Assembly (NCBI GenBank): GCA_020073485.1 | Contig: JAIQFB010000024.1 | Location: forward strand, 1 to 64,000 | DNA from: Terriglobia bacterium | GTDB lineage: Bacteria; Acidobacteriota; Terriglobia; Acidiferrales; UBA7541 | DNA: 64,000 nt | Direction of reading: 5' to 3' | In this document: positions 6,121 to 10,352 of the stretch, in pieces | How the letters are laid out: each line of letters opens with the position of its first letter | Numbering within the stretch: the first letter of the stretch is position 1 | Program-made: the position numbers and the translations under genes | The notes under the pieces: generated by a model | Databases searched by the model: none | What the model saw: the letters and a program-made list of their open reading frames with translations, nothing else | What the model was told of the DNA's origin: nothing

Positions 6121-6149
6121 TTGATATTCGCCTTTTATTCGCCTATAGT
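6121..6149 (+). promoter_or_regulatory. Sigma70-like promoter with an 11-bp-period direct repeat
   Basis: TTGATA (6121-6126), a 17-base spacer and TATAGT (6144-6149) form a near-ideal promoter 45 bases before the RecA-like gene. The spacer holds two copies of TATTCGCC (6125-6132 and 6136-6143), exactly 11 bases apart, so both lie on one face of the helix and overlap the -35 and -10 regions. The layout ATTC-N7-ATTC mirrors the direct-repeat LexA box of Alphaproteobacteria (GTTC-N7-GTTC). LexA control is inference; another repressor could read the repeat. Confidence 0.6.
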
Positions 6150-6193
6150 GGACTTCGATCGAGACGCACCCCCGAGGAGCGCGCCCCATAGCC

Positions 6194-6949
6194 ATGGCTT
6201 CAGACCCCATCCCGGCTGCACTGGCCACTCGCCGTTCCCCGACAGCAACTCGGAGAGGCCTCGCCATCACCGTCCCGCCCGGATCGAACGCCGCGGCATC
6301 CGCGGGAGCGCGCTCCGCTGCGGCGGATGCCCCTGATCTGGCCGCGCCGCCTCCCGCACCGCGTCCCTGGGCGCTGCCGCCGCGCGGCCTGGCGCTGTTT
6401 TACGGCCGCCCGGAGACGCCGCGCCTGTTCCATTATTTTCTGCCGCGCCTGCTGGCCGAAGGCAAGCAGGTGCTGTGTCTGGACGGCGCCAACCGCTTCG
6501 ATCCGCTGCTGATCGCCCGCCTGGCGCGGCAGCGGGGCATCGCCCCGGCGGATTTCAACCGCGCAATCCGCGTCGCGCGCGCCTTCACCTGTTTTCAGCT
6601 GACCGAATTGCTGGCGCGCGTCCCGCGCCTGCTGGAAAAATTCTCCGCCGACGCCCTGCTGGTCACCGCGCTGCCCGATCTCTACTTCGACGAGGACGTG
6701 CGCGAGCGCGACGCCGCCGTGGCCTTTGGCCACGCCCTGCACGCCCTGCGCGCGCTCGCCCCATTGCCGCTGGCCGTCGCGGTCTTTTCCGACGCCACGT
6801 CCTTTGAAACCCCGCGCCGCGCCATGTTCGCGCAACTCGCCGCGCAAGCGAGCGAACTCTGGCGTTTCGCCCTAGATGCCGAAACCGCCCAACTGCGTCT
6901 GACGGGCGAGAAGAGGGAAGACAGGTTGCAGGTGATGGGTAACAGATAG
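6194..6949 (+). CDS. RecA/RadA-fold protein of a PolB cassette, P-loop degenerate
   Basis: This 251-residue protein has a low-complexity Ala/Pro-rich N-terminus (about 1-60) and then a RecA-like core. LFYGRPETPRLF at 69-80 stands where Walker A should be but lacks GK[ST]. VLCLDGANRFDPLLIARLA (93-111) and VARAFTCFQLTELL (127-140) are hallmarks of RadA/Rad51-like accessory proteins. DALLVTALPDLYFDEDV (about 154-170) occupies the Walker B region. It is first in the cassette with the small protein at 7180 and the polymerase at 7607. It is probably a catalytically dead recombinase paralogue that loads or positions the polymerase, comparable in role to ImuA. Its start is supported by position only; GAGGAG lies rather far upstream. 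Confidence 0.7.
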   Translation: MASDPIPAALATRRSPTATRRGLAITVPPGSNAAASAGARSAAADAPDLAAPPPAPRPWALPPRGLALFYGRPETPRLFHYFLPRLLAEGKQVLCLDGANRFDPLLIARLARQRGIAPADFNRAIRVARAFTCFQLTELLARVPRLLEKFSADALLVTALPDLYFDEDVRERDAAVAFGHALHALRALAPLPLAVAVFSDATSFETPRRAMFAQLAAQASELWRFALDAETAQLRLTGEKREDRLQVMGNR

Positions 6950-6983
6950 CGGGTTGCAGGTAACAGGGATTCTAGGCTCCGCG

Positions 6984-7165
6984 GTTTTCTCTGTGCCCTC
7001 TGTGCCCTCCGTGGTCTCTATGTTAAAGCTTTTTCTCCGCCCGCAAAAAGGCTCTCAACACAGAAACCACGGAGAACACAGAGAAGAGGCCGATAAAATC
7101 TCAAATATGAAATTTCAAATTGTGAATCAACATTTCTAATCTCAAATTTCAAATTTGAAATCACG
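6984..7165. repeat. Two dispersed inverted repeats between cassette genes 1 and 2
   Basis: At 6984-7086 the arms TCTCTGTG..CTCCGTGGT and ACCACGGAG..CACAGAG face each other around a short spacer. At 7097-7165 several copies of the ATTTCAAATTTGAAAT palindrome follow. Both are non-coding repeat types seen between acidobacterial genes. Together they separate the RecA-like gene from the next by 230 bases. Confidence 0.6.
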
Positions 7166-7179
7166 AATCACAGACTTTC

Positions 7180-7830
7180 ATGGGCCGCACGCTTCCCACA
7201 TTCCGCCAGCTGATCGACGACGCCATCGCGCGCTGGTCGAAATTCCGCCGAGCCCTGCGCCGCGAGGACCAGGAATATTTCGACCGCCTGTTTCGCCGCG
7301 TGCGTTCCTACACCCAGGCGGCCACCTACCAGGCCAGCGACAACCCCATGGAAGCCATCCTGCTCTCCATCGCCCTCGATCAGGAAAAGCGCTTGGACGT
7401 CCTGGAGCGCACCGTGCACCTGCCGGAACTGTCTGTGGGCTCTACTTTTACGCTCGACGCCCGGACGCAGCTGGAGCCCGGCAGCCCGCCCGAAGCGATT
7501 GTGGACTGTACTTTTACGCTGCACGCTTCCAGTGAAGCGTGCAGCCCACTAGAAACGGGTGTGGGCTCTACTTGGAGCCCACCTGAAGAATATTTGGAGC
7601 AATTCGATGTCCCTCGAAGCACTGATAAAAATGAGCACCCCGGCACGCATCCTCAGCCGGACCCCAGCCAGCAACTCAACCCAGTCCAGCGGCCCAACCC
7701 CGGCCGCCAGCGCCACACCCGCCAGCAGTCGGACACAACTGCATGGCTGGATTTTCGATCTCTACCCGAGCCCGCACGGGATGAAGCTGTGGCTGATAGA
7801 GCCGAACCAAAAACGCCACCAGCTGATTGA
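7180..7830 (+). CDS. Small cassette protein resembling haloarchaeal DUF8156
   Basis: The first about 80 residues look conserved: MGRTLPTFRQLIDDAIARW, then FRRALRREDQEYFDRLFRRV, DNPMEAILLSIALDQEKRLD and VLERT. From memory this closely resembles the short haloarchaeal family DUF8156 (MGRTNPTFRD.., YRRALR..DQ..FD.LF), whose function is unknown. Residues from about 84 on are repeat-derived: VGSTFTL, VDCTFTL and VGSTWSP are three in-frame copies of one DNA repeat, followed by Pro/Gln-rich sequence. The frame runs 224 bases past the polymerase start at 7607. The functional protein may be only the N-terminal part, with a tail created by repeat insertion. It probably acts with the polymerase. Confidence 0.6.
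   Translation: MGRTLPTFRQLIDDAIARWSKFRRALRREDQEYFDRLFRRVRSYTQAATYQASDNPMEAILLSIALDQEKRLDVLERTVHLPELSVGSTFTLDARTQLEPGSPPEAIVDCTFTLHASSEACSPLETGVGSTWSPPEEYLEQFDVPRSTDKNEHPGTHPQPDPSQQLNPVQRPNPGRQRHTRQQSDTTAWLDFRSLPEPARDEAVADRAEPKTPPAD
7435..7582 (+). repeat. Triplicated repeat with perfect hairpins inside coding sequence
   Basis: GTGGGCTCTACTTTTACGCT at 7435 recurs at 7501 with two changes and, truncated, at 7561. The steps of 66 and 60 bases preserve the reading frame. A perfect 12-bp stem with a CAGT loop (GCTGCACGCTTC / GAAGCGTGCAGC) spans 7518-7545, and an 8-bp stem (GTGGGCTC / GAGCCCAC) spans 7561-7582. The element sits at the end of the small gene, just before the polymerase start. Confidence 0.75.
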
Positions 7831-9988
7831 CCGCTTCGCGCCCGTTTTTTACGCGTCCGGCCCGGACGCCGTGCTGCGCCGCCTGCGCGAAGCCATCGCC
7901 CGCCAGCCGCACGCTCTCTCGTGCCGCCACACCGAGCGCATCGATCTGTGGCAGCCCGCTTTCGCCGCGAACGACGGGGCGAAAGCAGGCCTGTGCCCGG
8001 TCCTCGAAATCGAAGTCGCCCGCGCCAGCGAATATTCCTCCTGGACGCGCTGGGTACGCCAGTTTGACGCCTCGCTGCGTCTCTACAACAGCGACCTCAT
8101 GCTCGCCTCCATGTACTGCTGGCAGCGCAACATTTTTCCGCTGGCTCGCGTCGATGCCGAAGTCGATGCCGAGGGCCGCGTCCTCGCCCTCGAATGCTGC
8201 GACACCGAATGGGCCCTCGACTACGAACTCCCGCCGCTCGAAATCCTGCGCATACGCCTCGGCGGACACCGCCGCATCGATCCCACGCACGGCGCCGCCT
8301 TTGGGCAAGGCGCCGCCCTCGAAATCGAAGTGGACGGCCGCGAATTCGAGCTCGACGAATCCGGCGAGCCCGCCGCCGTCGCCTTCCAGCACCTGCTCGC
8401 GCGCCACGATCCCGACCTGATCCTCAGCGACTGGGGCGACGCCACCATCCTCCCGCGCATCTCCGAACAGGCCGCGCGCCTGCGCCTGCCCCTCACGCTC
8501 AACCGCGATCCCGACGCCATCGTCCACCAGAGCCGCGCGCGCAGCTTCATGAGCTACGGCCGCATCCTGTTCAAAAACAGCGCCATCACCCTGTGCGGCC
8601 GCCTGCACGTCGACACGCAGAATTCCTTCATCGCCGATAAATGCGATCTCTCCGGACTCTGGGAACTTGCGCGCGTCACCAAGCTCCCCGTGCAGTACGC
8701 CTCGCGCACCTCCACCGGCACGGGCATCTCCTACATGCAGATGGAACTCGCCTGGCGCGATGGCGTCCTCATCCCCGAACAAAAAGCCGAGCCCGAGGAT
8801 CCCAAGCCGCCCGACGAACTCCTCCTCGCCGACCGCGGCGGCTTGGTCTTCACTCCCAAAATCGGTTTCCATGCCAACGTCGTCGAGCTGGATTTCGTCA
8901 GCGAATATCCCAGCATCATGGCGCGCTTCAACATCTCTCCCGAAACGATCAACTGCCCGTGCTGTCCCGGCGCTCCGCGCGTCCCCGAACTCGGCTACCG
9001 CGTCTGCCAGCGCCGCCGCGGCATCACCAGCCGCGTAGTCGAACGCCTCATCGCCAAGCGCACCGAACTGAAGCAGCGGCTGCGCGATGCGGAGAAAGAA
9101 ACAGCGGCGCGATTGAAACTCCAGCGCGACGCCCTCAAATGGCTCCTGGTCTGCTGCTTCGGTTACACCGGCTATAAAAACGCGCGCTTCGGAAAAATCG
9201 AGGCGCACGAAGCCATCAACGCCGTCGCCCGCGAAACGCTCCTGGTCGCCAAGGAACTGGCCGAGGACCGCGGCTACGAAATCCTGCACGCCCTGGTCGA
9301 TTCTCTTTACGTGCGCAAACCGGGAGCCGCGCGCGCCGATTTTGAATCGCTCACCGAAGAAATCGCCGCCCGCACCGGCCTCCCGCTCGCGATCGAAGCC
9401 GTCTATCGTTACGTCGTGTTCCTGCCGTCCCGGCAATTCGCCGACGTCCCGGTGCCCAACCGTTTTTTCGCCGTCGCCGAAGACGGCGCCCTGAAAGTGC
9501 GCGGCCTCGAGTTGCGCCGCCATGACACCCCGCCGCTCATCGCGCGCATGCAGCAGGAAGCCCTCGACATCGTCGCCGAAGCGCACGATTTCCCCAGCTA
9601 CGCCGCAAAGCTGGAAGAAGCCCGCGAACTCCTGCGCCGCTATGAAGAATCGCTGGCCGACGGCAGCGTGGCCATCGAGGACTTGATCGTCAGCAAGCGC
9701 CTCACTCGCGAGCCCCGCGAATACAGCAAAGCCAATCAGACCGCCATCGCCGCGCAGCAATTGCTGGGCAGCGGCGTGCGCCTGCGCCCCGGCCAGACCG
9801 TCGAATACATCATCACCGACGCCCGCAACCGCGTCCCCAACGACCGCGTCCGCGCCTACGCCCTCTGGGACGGCTGGTTCGGCTACGACCGCCGCAAATA
9901 CACCGAACTCCTCCGCGACGCCTTCGAGCCCCTCGCGCTCTGTGTCGCTGAGCAAGCCCCTCCTCGCACACGCAAAATCCTAAAATGA
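7607..9988 (+). CDS. Family-B DNA polymerase with decayed exonuclease (PolB2/Dpo2-like)
   Basis: A 793-residue family-B DNA polymerase. Motif A is DFVSEYPSIMARF with the metal-binding Asp429. Motif B is KWLLVCCFGYTGYKNARFG starting at Lys511, with Cys replacing the usual N/S. Motif C is HALVDSLYV with Asp565; the first Asp of canonical DTDS is replaced but the catalytic one is kept. Between A and B lies a CPCC..C cluster that could bind metal. The N-terminal 3'-5' exonuclease region is present but lacks DxE (LEILRIRL where FDIE is expected) and exo II (PDLILSDWGDAT), so proofreading is predicted lost. The ATG at 7607 is preferred; GTG 7559 lies inside the repeat and ATG 7631 is also possible. 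Family-B polymerases are uncommon in bacteria. A damage-tolerance role is likely. Confidence 0.85.
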   Translation: MSLEALIKMSTPARILSRTPASNSTQSSGPTPAASATPASSRTQLHGWIFDLYPSPHGMKLWLIEPNQKRHQLIDRFAPVFYASGPDAVLRRLREAIARQPHALSCRHTERIDLWQPAFAANDGAKAGLCPVLEIEVARASEYSSWTRWVRQFDASLRLYNSDLMLASMYCWQRNIFPLARVDAEVDAEGRVLALECCDTEWALDYELPPLEILRIRLGGHRRIDPTHGAAFGQGAALEIEVDGREFELDESGEPAAVAFQHLLARHDPDLILSDWGDATILPRISEQAARLRLPLTLNRDPDAIVHQSRARSFMSYGRILFKNSAITLCGRLHVDTQNSFIADKCDLSGLWELARVTKLPVQYASRTSTGTGISYMQMELAWRDGVLIPEQKAEPEDPKPPDELLLADRGGLVFTPKIGFHANVVELDFVSEYPSIMARFNISPETINCPCCPGAPRVPELGYRVCQRRRGITSRVVERLIAKRTELKQRLRDAEKETAARLKLQRDALKWLLVCCFGYTGYKNARFGKIEAHEAINAVARETLLVAKELAEDRGYEILHALVDSLYVRKPGAARADFESLTEEIAARTGLPLAIEAVYRYVVFLPSRQFADVPVPNRFFAVAEDGALKVRGLELRRHDTPPLIARMQQEALDIVAEAHDFPSYAAKLEEARELLRRYEESLADGSVAIEDLIVSKRLTREPREYSKANQTAIAAQQLLGSGVRLRPGQTVEYIITDARNRVPNDRVRAYALWDGWFGYDRRKYTELLRDAFEPLALCVAEQAPPRTRKILK

Positions 9989-10352
9989 CTTCGCAGCGAG
10001 AGCAGTTCCTTTTGTAGAGGCCGTTCACGGTGAACGTTCACGCTGAACCGCCCGCTTTTCGGGCAGGCATCCTTTCCGCTTTCAAATCTCAAATTTCAAA
10101 TTTGAAATTCACTCCTCTCCCGATCTGGCGACGCTTCTCGCCGGGCCTGCCCTCCGATGTAAGCCCGAGAGAAATCCTGGCCCGGATGAAAAAATGCGGT
10201 GTTGACTCGTTCGTCTTATTTGTCGTCATGCAAACAGGGATCCCCCCCCAAAAAAAAGTTCAGGCTCACCCCCCTGTCCCATTTCTGATCCTTTGGACAC
10301 CTACTTCGGCAAGAAAAACATCCGATAATTGCATCTAACCATCTAAGAAACT
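9989..10352. other. Intergenic stretch with a palindrome pair and a repeat
   Basis: No gene is seen. It holds the tandem GTTCAC-type palindromes at 10023-10048, one copy of the ATTTCAAATTTGAAAT element at 10081-10110, and a homopolymeric patch (eight C, then eight A) near 10243. The diguanylate cyclase promoter should be here, but no strong hexamers were found. Confidence 0.4.
10023..10048. promoter_or_regulatory. Tandem 13-bp palindromes, possible operator
   Basis: GTTCACGGTGAAC is followed directly by GTTCACGCTGAAC. The two units differ at one base and each is an inverted repeat of GTTCA. Adjacent dyads of this kind usually bind cooperative dimeric repressors. It lies 35 bases after the polymerase stop and 305 bases before the diguanylate cyclase. 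The bound protein is unknown. Confidence 0.4.

Follow-up and report, generated by a model that had tools for sequence, protein, structure and literature searches.

Here, we analyzed a 64,000-nucleotide stretch of DNA (the window; positions 1 to 64,000 of contig JAIQFB010000024.1, assembly GCA_020073485.1, Terriglobia bacterium), which stems from a soil acidobacterium and carries three co-oriented genes at positions 6121–9988. In our reading, to which we give a probability of roughly 0.8, these genes form the operon of a bacterial PolB2 mutasome that is controlled by the SOS response. All located on the forward strand, they encode iRadA, a protein of RadA/Rad51 fold without a P-loop (6194–6949), PPB2, an arCOG07300-like small helical partner (7180–7830), and the polymerase PolB2 (7607–9988; 793 residues). 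Operons of this type are already known; they encode error-prone DNA-copying machinery that bacteria acquired from archaea, and the most likely function of the present one is damage-induced mutagenic translesion synthesis. The identity of the operon and its likely architecture are known from the work of others; our analysis adds a predicted LexA operator within the promoter and a tendency to stand without a second DnaE polymerase. A preliminary description of the window, made from the letters alone, had already pointed to three genes in one orientation at this position, which the list of open reading frames bears out. Altogether, its observation is confirmed and its interpretation partly supported.

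The three proteins and their families

The polymerase matches the Pfam family DNA_pol_B (E = 7e-28). Its two best NCBIfam models, both of 'type B', reach 390 and 355 bits, which is below their own cut-offs (next model: 151 bits); the same two models are also the best two for the PolB2 of Haloarcula, for which one gives 1431 bits. In a tree of 29 polymerases, 27 PolB2 rows, including the haloarchaeal ones, were separated at 99/99 from Pol II and PolB3, with references consisting of two haloarchaeal PolB2, one E. coli Pol II and one partial P. furiosus PolB3, and with a warning of the program that the long haloarchaeal and outgroup branches meet. The structural model of PolB2 (mean predicted local distance difference test score, pLDDT, 85) is closest to archaeal family-B polymerases. 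The start of the gene most likely lies at the ATG at 7607, which has GGAG in front, rather than at the GTG at 7559, where the longest open frame begins.

At the level of motifs, the polymerase carries the PolB2-specific D(K/R)GG motif (D409-R410, 8828–8845), which is described in PMC11791011. The aspartate is present in 23/23 aligned bacterial PolB2 and is followed by K or R in 22/23 (Q in L038); the motif was not found in the aligned Pol II and PolB3 sequences. Motif A (LDFVSEYPS, 8888–8914) retains its catalytic aspartate and motif B is present, so that this part of the earlier claim of intact polymerase motifs stands. For motif C (ALVDSLY, 9290–9310) it does not, since the first aspartate of DxD is replaced (HALVDS versus YGDTDS in Pol II), a loss shared by most PolB2. 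None of the ExoI, ExoII and ExoIII patterns was found in the first 400 residues, in agreement with the decayed exonuclease noted before.

Based on these features, PolB2 could be catalytically dead and its complex could act at stalled forks in a structural or regulatory role, as the family was read in 2008 and 2014. The altered motif C, the missing exonuclease patterns and the P-loop-less iRadA would all be compatible with this explanation. The archaeal relative Dpo2 of Sulfolobus islandicus, however, lacks the same aspartate (PMC7390963, PMC11791011) and is still a robust polymerase, which extends mismatches efficiently and does not proofread (PMC8764526). Moreover, all 23 aligned PolB2 have retained D429, K511 and D565, residues of which a dead enzyme would have no need. 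We thus regard an inactive polymerase as unlikely and retain the mutasome reading.

Taken alone, iRadA shows a weak match to Rad51 in Pfam (E = 0.02). A profile built from 22 iRadA relatives matches RadA, Rad51 and DMC1 chains of the PDB (best E = 3e-10), and the AlphaFold model (mean pLDDT 80) likewise matches RadA/Rad51 (best E = 4e-10), with residues 1–4, 8–41 and 242–251 at pLDDT below 50. The N-terminal domain of RadA is missing: nothing precedes the core, and residues 8–41 are unfolded in the model. A search of iRadA for the Walker A pattern gave no hit. The earlier statement of a RecA-like protein without a P-loop is thereby upheld.

PPB2 begins with MGRT, and its N-terminal 84 residues or so (about 7180–7431) represent the conserved core of the family. 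MGR is found in 24/24 aligned PPB2 and T4 is nearly invariant; the remaining tail of about 130 residues is lineage-specific and overlaps the polymerase gene. On two haloarchaeal plasmids, the PPB2 profile picks out the small gene next to PolB2 (E = 1.7e-25 and 4.6e-22); the same plasmids are matched weakly by the iRadA profile (E = 3.7e-7 and 1.5e-5). Only the name DUF8156, previously given to the small protein, had to be dropped, as no match so named was returned by Pfam and NCBIfam for the window protein, by Pfam for both haloarchaeal proteins or by NCBIfam for one of them. Profile and hidden Markov model matches together with the tree otherwise support what had been proposed, namely a PolB2/Dpo2-like polymerase encoded with a RecA-fold gene and a small partner gene.

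Gene order, co-occurrence and phage-borne relatives

The source genome (5.05 Mb in 46 contigs) contains one match to the family-B polymerase model. The closest named relative is a metagenome-assembled genome (MAG) of the Terriglobia (Acidobacteriota), with a polymerase identity of 90%. The order iRadA-PPB2-PolB2 is complete in 19/21 related loci, counting one in which iRadA and PPB2 lie in one disturbed frame (L028) and one in which a contig end cuts iRadA (L031). In L041, the sequence begins at PPB2 because of a contig end. An unclassified bacterium (L043) carries PolB2 with about 5.9 kb of upstream sequence, in which neither scan detected iRadA or PPB2.

Within the family, of which many genomes are incomplete MAGs, PolB2 matches occur in 18/89 genomes and are long in 16, some of them split over pieces or contigs. 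The other matches are an 88-residue fragment containing a stop (G006) and pieces of 42–45% identity on a short contig (G029). iRadA was found in 16/89 genomes, exactly those with long PolB2 matches; the check on co-occurrence, whose failure would have spoken against the earlier proposal, did not turn out against it. Two contigs deviate, with either assembly error or decay as explanation: one joins iRadA to PolB2 in a single frame (G055; L016), the other carries iRadA without its middle (G017; L010). Identity to same-genus copies amounts to 68–89% (PolB2 82–89, iRadA 77–80, PPB2 68–80). The alignments include 22/25 iRadA, 23/28 PolB2 and 24/27 PPB2 of those found.

Four Leptospira phage records also match PolB2, and two LE1-type loci (L166, 3180–6445; L167, 3195–6268) contain the complete set of iRadA, PPB2 and PolB2. 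The iRadA profile matches these loci with E = 5e-16 and 7e-17; their PPB2 proteins, which start with MGRT, are found with E = 9e-17 and 3e-19. The annotation of the phage genes reads "hypothetical protein" and "DNA polymerase family B", and unnamed PHROGs families match iRadA and PPB2. Judged from gene content and profile matches, the two inspected loci are phage-borne PolB2 mutasomes.

The existence of these phage polymerases might suggest that the window gene encodes a family-B polymerase of replicative or phage type whose neighbours are unrelated to it, an outcome named earlier as contradicting a PolB2 assignment. The tree instead places it with chromosomal acidobacterial PolB2 (with the warning on outgroup branches given above), the two phage loci themselves encode a PolB2 with the same two partners, and exonuclease patterns are missing. 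In view of the tree, the phage loci and the co-occurrence with iRadA, we consider this possibility refuted for practical purposes and continue with the PolB2 assignment.

Promoter and predicted LexA operator

Upstream of iRadA lies a sigma-70-like promoter, TTGATA-TTCGCCTTTTATTCGCC-TATAGT (6121–6149), with the −35 element at 6121–6126, a 17-bp spacer at 6127–6143 and the −10 element at 6144–6149. The inducible-looking promoter of the preliminary description can thus be specified: its spacer is a direct repeat of 11-bp period, TTCGC-N6-TTCGC (6127–6142), which we predict to be a LexA operator given the same repeat upstream of lexA. Related operons show the same promoter arrangement, and the family consensus, drawn from these operons and from the window site itself, has a single match in the 64 kb, namely this promoter with one mismatch (0.00 expected).

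Upstream of acidobacterial iRadA genes, the repeat is perfect in 17/23 cases and has one mismatch in 4/23. These 23 genes are non-redundant and have sufficient sequence upstream, with 20 assessed within 300 bp and three (G019:C68, G055:C273 and G017) within 400 bp. Same-contig duplicates under two ids, loci in which the contig ends inside iRadA (L011/L189, L016/L192, L031) and loci without iRadA (L018, L019, L022–L024) were left out. As a control, random, overlapping 300-bp windows were sampled elsewhere in the 20 loci: the repeat was perfect in 0/1619 and had one mismatch in 1.2%. Shuffled upstream regions contained a perfect repeat in 0.1% and one with a single mismatch in 1.2%. Outside the Acidobacteriota, the repeat was found in none of the five loci with a testable iRadA start (out of eight loci). 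Instead, lexA itself is located directly upstream of the operon in three Nitrospirota loci, in line with the bacterial lexA neighbourhoods reported in PMC4104785 and PMC11791011.

The link to LexA comes from the lexA gene, which was found in 85/89 family genomes. In all 30 lexA loci returned (one per genome, of the 85 genomes with a match), the repeat is located within 150 bp of the lexA start; 31 copies are present in the 104,682 bp of these loci, both strands considered. In the window genome, perfect copies of the extended motif are confined to two places, the PolB2 operon and the sequence just upstream of lexA (G000:C7:83462–84088). The bare repeat TTCGC-N6-TTCGC occurs 51 times in this genome compared to 24 times in the control; in 10/51 the spacer begins with Y-T-T, like that at lexA (by eye), and most of the 51 are probably due to chance. 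Given the presence of the repeat upstream of both lexA and iRadA, and its absence in perfect form from the sampled windows, the operon is very probably LexA-repressed and SOS-induced via the predicted operator.

It could be argued that the direct repeat is bound by a different repressor, or is a mere part of a conserved promoter, and that the operon is not controlled by LexA. The operator is indeed a prediction, and the LexA proteins of other groups use other motifs. On the other hand, the repeat accompanies lexA in 30/30 loci and dinB in four same-genus loci, and it stands with one mismatch 125–143 bp before recA (recognized by eye). It also shares its direct orientation and 11-bp period with the alphaproteobacterial LexA box GTTC-N7-GTTC (PMC3323433). 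Finally, a 2006 paper on the LexA box of Acidobacterium capsulatum, cited in PMC3323433 and PMC7739468, links that lexA to the Alphaproteobacteria in its title. We consider a function unrelated to LexA very unlikely and keep to SOS control of the operon. Because of the 2006 paper, LexA boxes as such are no novelty in Acidobacteriota; our literature search, which for an acidobacterial LexA motif led to PMC8565304, PMC3323433 and PMC7739468, returned no report of such a box at a PolB2 operon.

Other candidate SOS genes and polymerases

The dinB box is perfect in 4/4 same-genus loci fetched. In the window genome, dinB (L105, 1350–2554; G000:C41) is the only Y-family gene found and has a perfect LexA-type box upstream. 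Compared to the same-genus genome G084, 94 bases are missing from this gene and its frame is broken, with an assembly error as a possible cause. Two further genes of this genome are preceded by LexA-type boxes. A radical-SAM gene, which resembles the Rv2578c and PA0069 families below their cut-offs, has two tandem boxes (G000:C45:241399–241448; L063) and is a candidate SOS gene. The other box lies about 19 bp in front of the open reading frame of an MrfA-type helicase, a DEAH protein that contains an MrfA Zn-binding domain, and is oriented opposite to the gene (G000:C21:51864–51882; L064). In Balneolaeota, a LexA regulon has been shown to include a helicase as well as a radical-SAM gene (PMC7739468).

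With respect to other mutasomes, no DnaE2 and ImuB homologues were detected in the window genome, which is 97% complete and contains one DnaE match and one Y-family match, the latter reading as dinB. Across the family, a second DnaE match was present in 5/16 genomes with PolB2 and in 50/71 lacking it (Fisher p = 0.008, excluding G006 and G029), where the counts are Pfam matches rather than proven DnaE2 and relatedness is ignored. At 90% completeness, the numbers are 4/11 and 31/37 (p = 0.004). In this family, the genomes with PolB2 tend to be those in which no second DnaE is found.

A tentative proposal, to which we give slightly less than even odds, is that in part of the family an archaeal-type PolB2 mutasome took the seat of the SOS mutasome, under the LexA box of the host (in Nitrospirota, behind lexA) and mostly without a second DnaE. 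In the window genome, with the dinB frame broken, it would be the sole intact translesion system detected.

Intergenic repeats and integrity of the operon

The 230-bp gap between iRadA and PPB2 (6950–7179) contains short repeats, among them an inverted repeat (6998–7024/7057–7083) and a repeat of the AATTTCAAATTTGAAAT type, which is also found near 10093. A wide gap is likewise present in the same-genus loci L025, L026 and L035, and absent from L027; outside the genus, the two genes are mostly close together. The PPB2 tail contains a REP-like hairpin, GTGGGCTC-TACTTG-GAGCCCAC (7561–7582), which lies a short way upstream of the probable start of PolB2. The hairpin, GTGGGCTCTACTTGGAGCCCAC, has 72 matches in the genome at up to three mismatches, with palindromic sites partly counted on both strands, versus none in the control. 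Related-looking repeats were also seen by eye inside the iRadA frame of L025, where they are read in frame.

In several other genera, PolB2 starts with M-x-L-x-GW, and the corresponding methionine is missing in the genus of the window (7607–7750). The PolB2 start must therefore lie upstream in this genus, which adds about 45 low-complexity residues encoded in the overlap with the PPB2 tail.

The invasion of the gap and the PPB2 tail by repeats, the loss of this start and the lack of a remaining clamp motif could indicate that the operon of the window genome is a decaying copy. Against decay, all three frames are open, identity to the same-genus copies is 68–89%, the operator and promoter are intact, and the repeats found sit in linkers. 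A decaying copy is quite improbable to us, and an intact mutasome operon remains our preferred explanation.

Besides the operon, a downstream GGDEF gene is shared with the same-genus loci L025 and L035, and the next two genes with L025 only. Three further candidate features were rejected. A 759-residue antisense open reading frame (7676–9955) lies opposite PolB2 in DNA of 64% G+C and is taken as mechanical. A tRNA-anchored island was dismissed, with no tRNA and no Rfam match at the gathering threshold in the window. A defence system was likewise discarded, since PADLOC assigned a single model, 'HEase', to PolB2 and matched neither of the partners.

Proposed mechanism and points against it

The data directly show the genes with their families, order and joint occurrence, the condition of the motifs, the promoter and the footprint of the operator. 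The following scheme further comprises LexA binding, complex formation, polymerase activity and mutagenesis, all of which we infer. In the absence of DNA damage, LexA bound to TTCGC-N6-TTCGC between the −35 and −10 elements would block transcription. Following damage, RecA on single-stranded DNA would trigger self-cleavage of LexA, and iRadA, PPB2 and PolB2 would be made together. A trimer of PPB2 and one iRadA could then dock on PolB2, as modelled by others for the family, with iRadA occupying the site of a Rad51 neighbour and the MGRT arm of PPB2 placed near the D(K/R) motif. The exonuclease-less PolB2 may extend primers past lesions and thereby cause mutations.

Several points weigh against this reading. 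The first DxD aspartate is absent in PolB2, repeats widen the gap between iRadA and PPB2, and the hairpin lies within the PPB2 tail. A simple QLxLF-like pattern found no beta-clamp motif in the iRadA and PolB2 of the window; a clamp-binding motif is a feature of only a fraction of mutasome members and is not required. With regard to the operator, 2/23 iRadA genes lack the box (L032, where the start assignment is unsure, and G017, where iRadA lacks its middle), and the related loci are not independent of each other. When two mismatches are allowed, the extended pattern occurs 12 times genome-wide versus 11 times in the control, and the argument for the operator therefore rests on its position. 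Among 26 Y-family loci outside the genus, the dinB box is perfect in none and has one mismatch in 3/26. Finally, our literature search found no experiment on a bacterial PolB2, and what the literature found says about bacterial PolB2 mutasomes is computational. With a LexA box in the promoter, the notion of a "probably damage-related" system becomes a specific prediction. If true, an archaeal mutagenesis machine has been plugged into the bacterial SOS switch, possibly replacing a second DnaE.

Comparison with known systems

The operon had been called largely undescribed, which does not hold. As early as 2008, a paper on the family (PMC2527604) named a small group of bacterial homologues. Linkage of the three genes in archaea and several bacteria, in some of them with lexA, was reported by Makarova in 2014 (PMC4104785). 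Timinskas in 2025 (PMC11791011) modelled a heteropentameric PolB2 mutasome and described the bacterial order iRadA-PPB2-PolB2, the MGRT arm, the D(K/R) motif and an enrichment of lexA, and PMC12926913 describes a bacterial G2/PolB2 group. As far as the main text of PMC11791011 is concerned, the terms 'phage', 'SOS box', 'promoter', 'Leptospira' and 'Acidobacteri' do not appear. The window operon resembles this PolB2 mutasome (PMC11791011, PMC12926913) in its three genes, their order, the MGRT arm, the D(K/R) motif, the lost DxD aspartate, the lost exonuclease motifs and the P-loop-less RadA fold. It differs in the long PPB2 tail overlapping polB2, in the lack of a detected beta-clamp motif, and in its predicted control by a LexA box in the promoter, the lexA gene being located at another place in the genome instead of next to the operon.

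Archaeal Dpo2 was presented in the preliminary description as damage-induced and as the cause of targeted mutagenesis, in agreement with PMC7390963, where it is damage-inducible and the source of such mutagenesis. The Dpo2 operon of Sulfolobus islandicus shares with the window operon the PolB2 type, the partners and the damage inducibility, which is a prediction for the window. Unlike that system, the window operon is bacterial and predicted to be controlled by LexA instead of an archaeal Orc1/Cdc6-type response, and its PolB2 has 793 residues compared to 555 in S. islandicus Dpo2.

The parallel in layout drawn earlier with ImuA-ImuB-DnaE2 holds. Both are LexA-controlled cassettes (by prediction in the window) in which an error-prone polymerase is combined with a partner of RecA fold (see also PMC12926913), but DnaE2 belongs to polymerase family C and the window polymerase to family B, and the window operon has no Y-family subunit. 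By analogy, the operon would work like ImuA-ImuB-DnaE2 without being a member of it. Pol V (UmuD'2C-RecA), to which PMC11791011 draws a parallel, is likewise a mutasome that contains a small oligomeric subunit and a partner of RecA fold, but it is built on a Y-family polymerase and has the RecA fold alone in common with the window operon.

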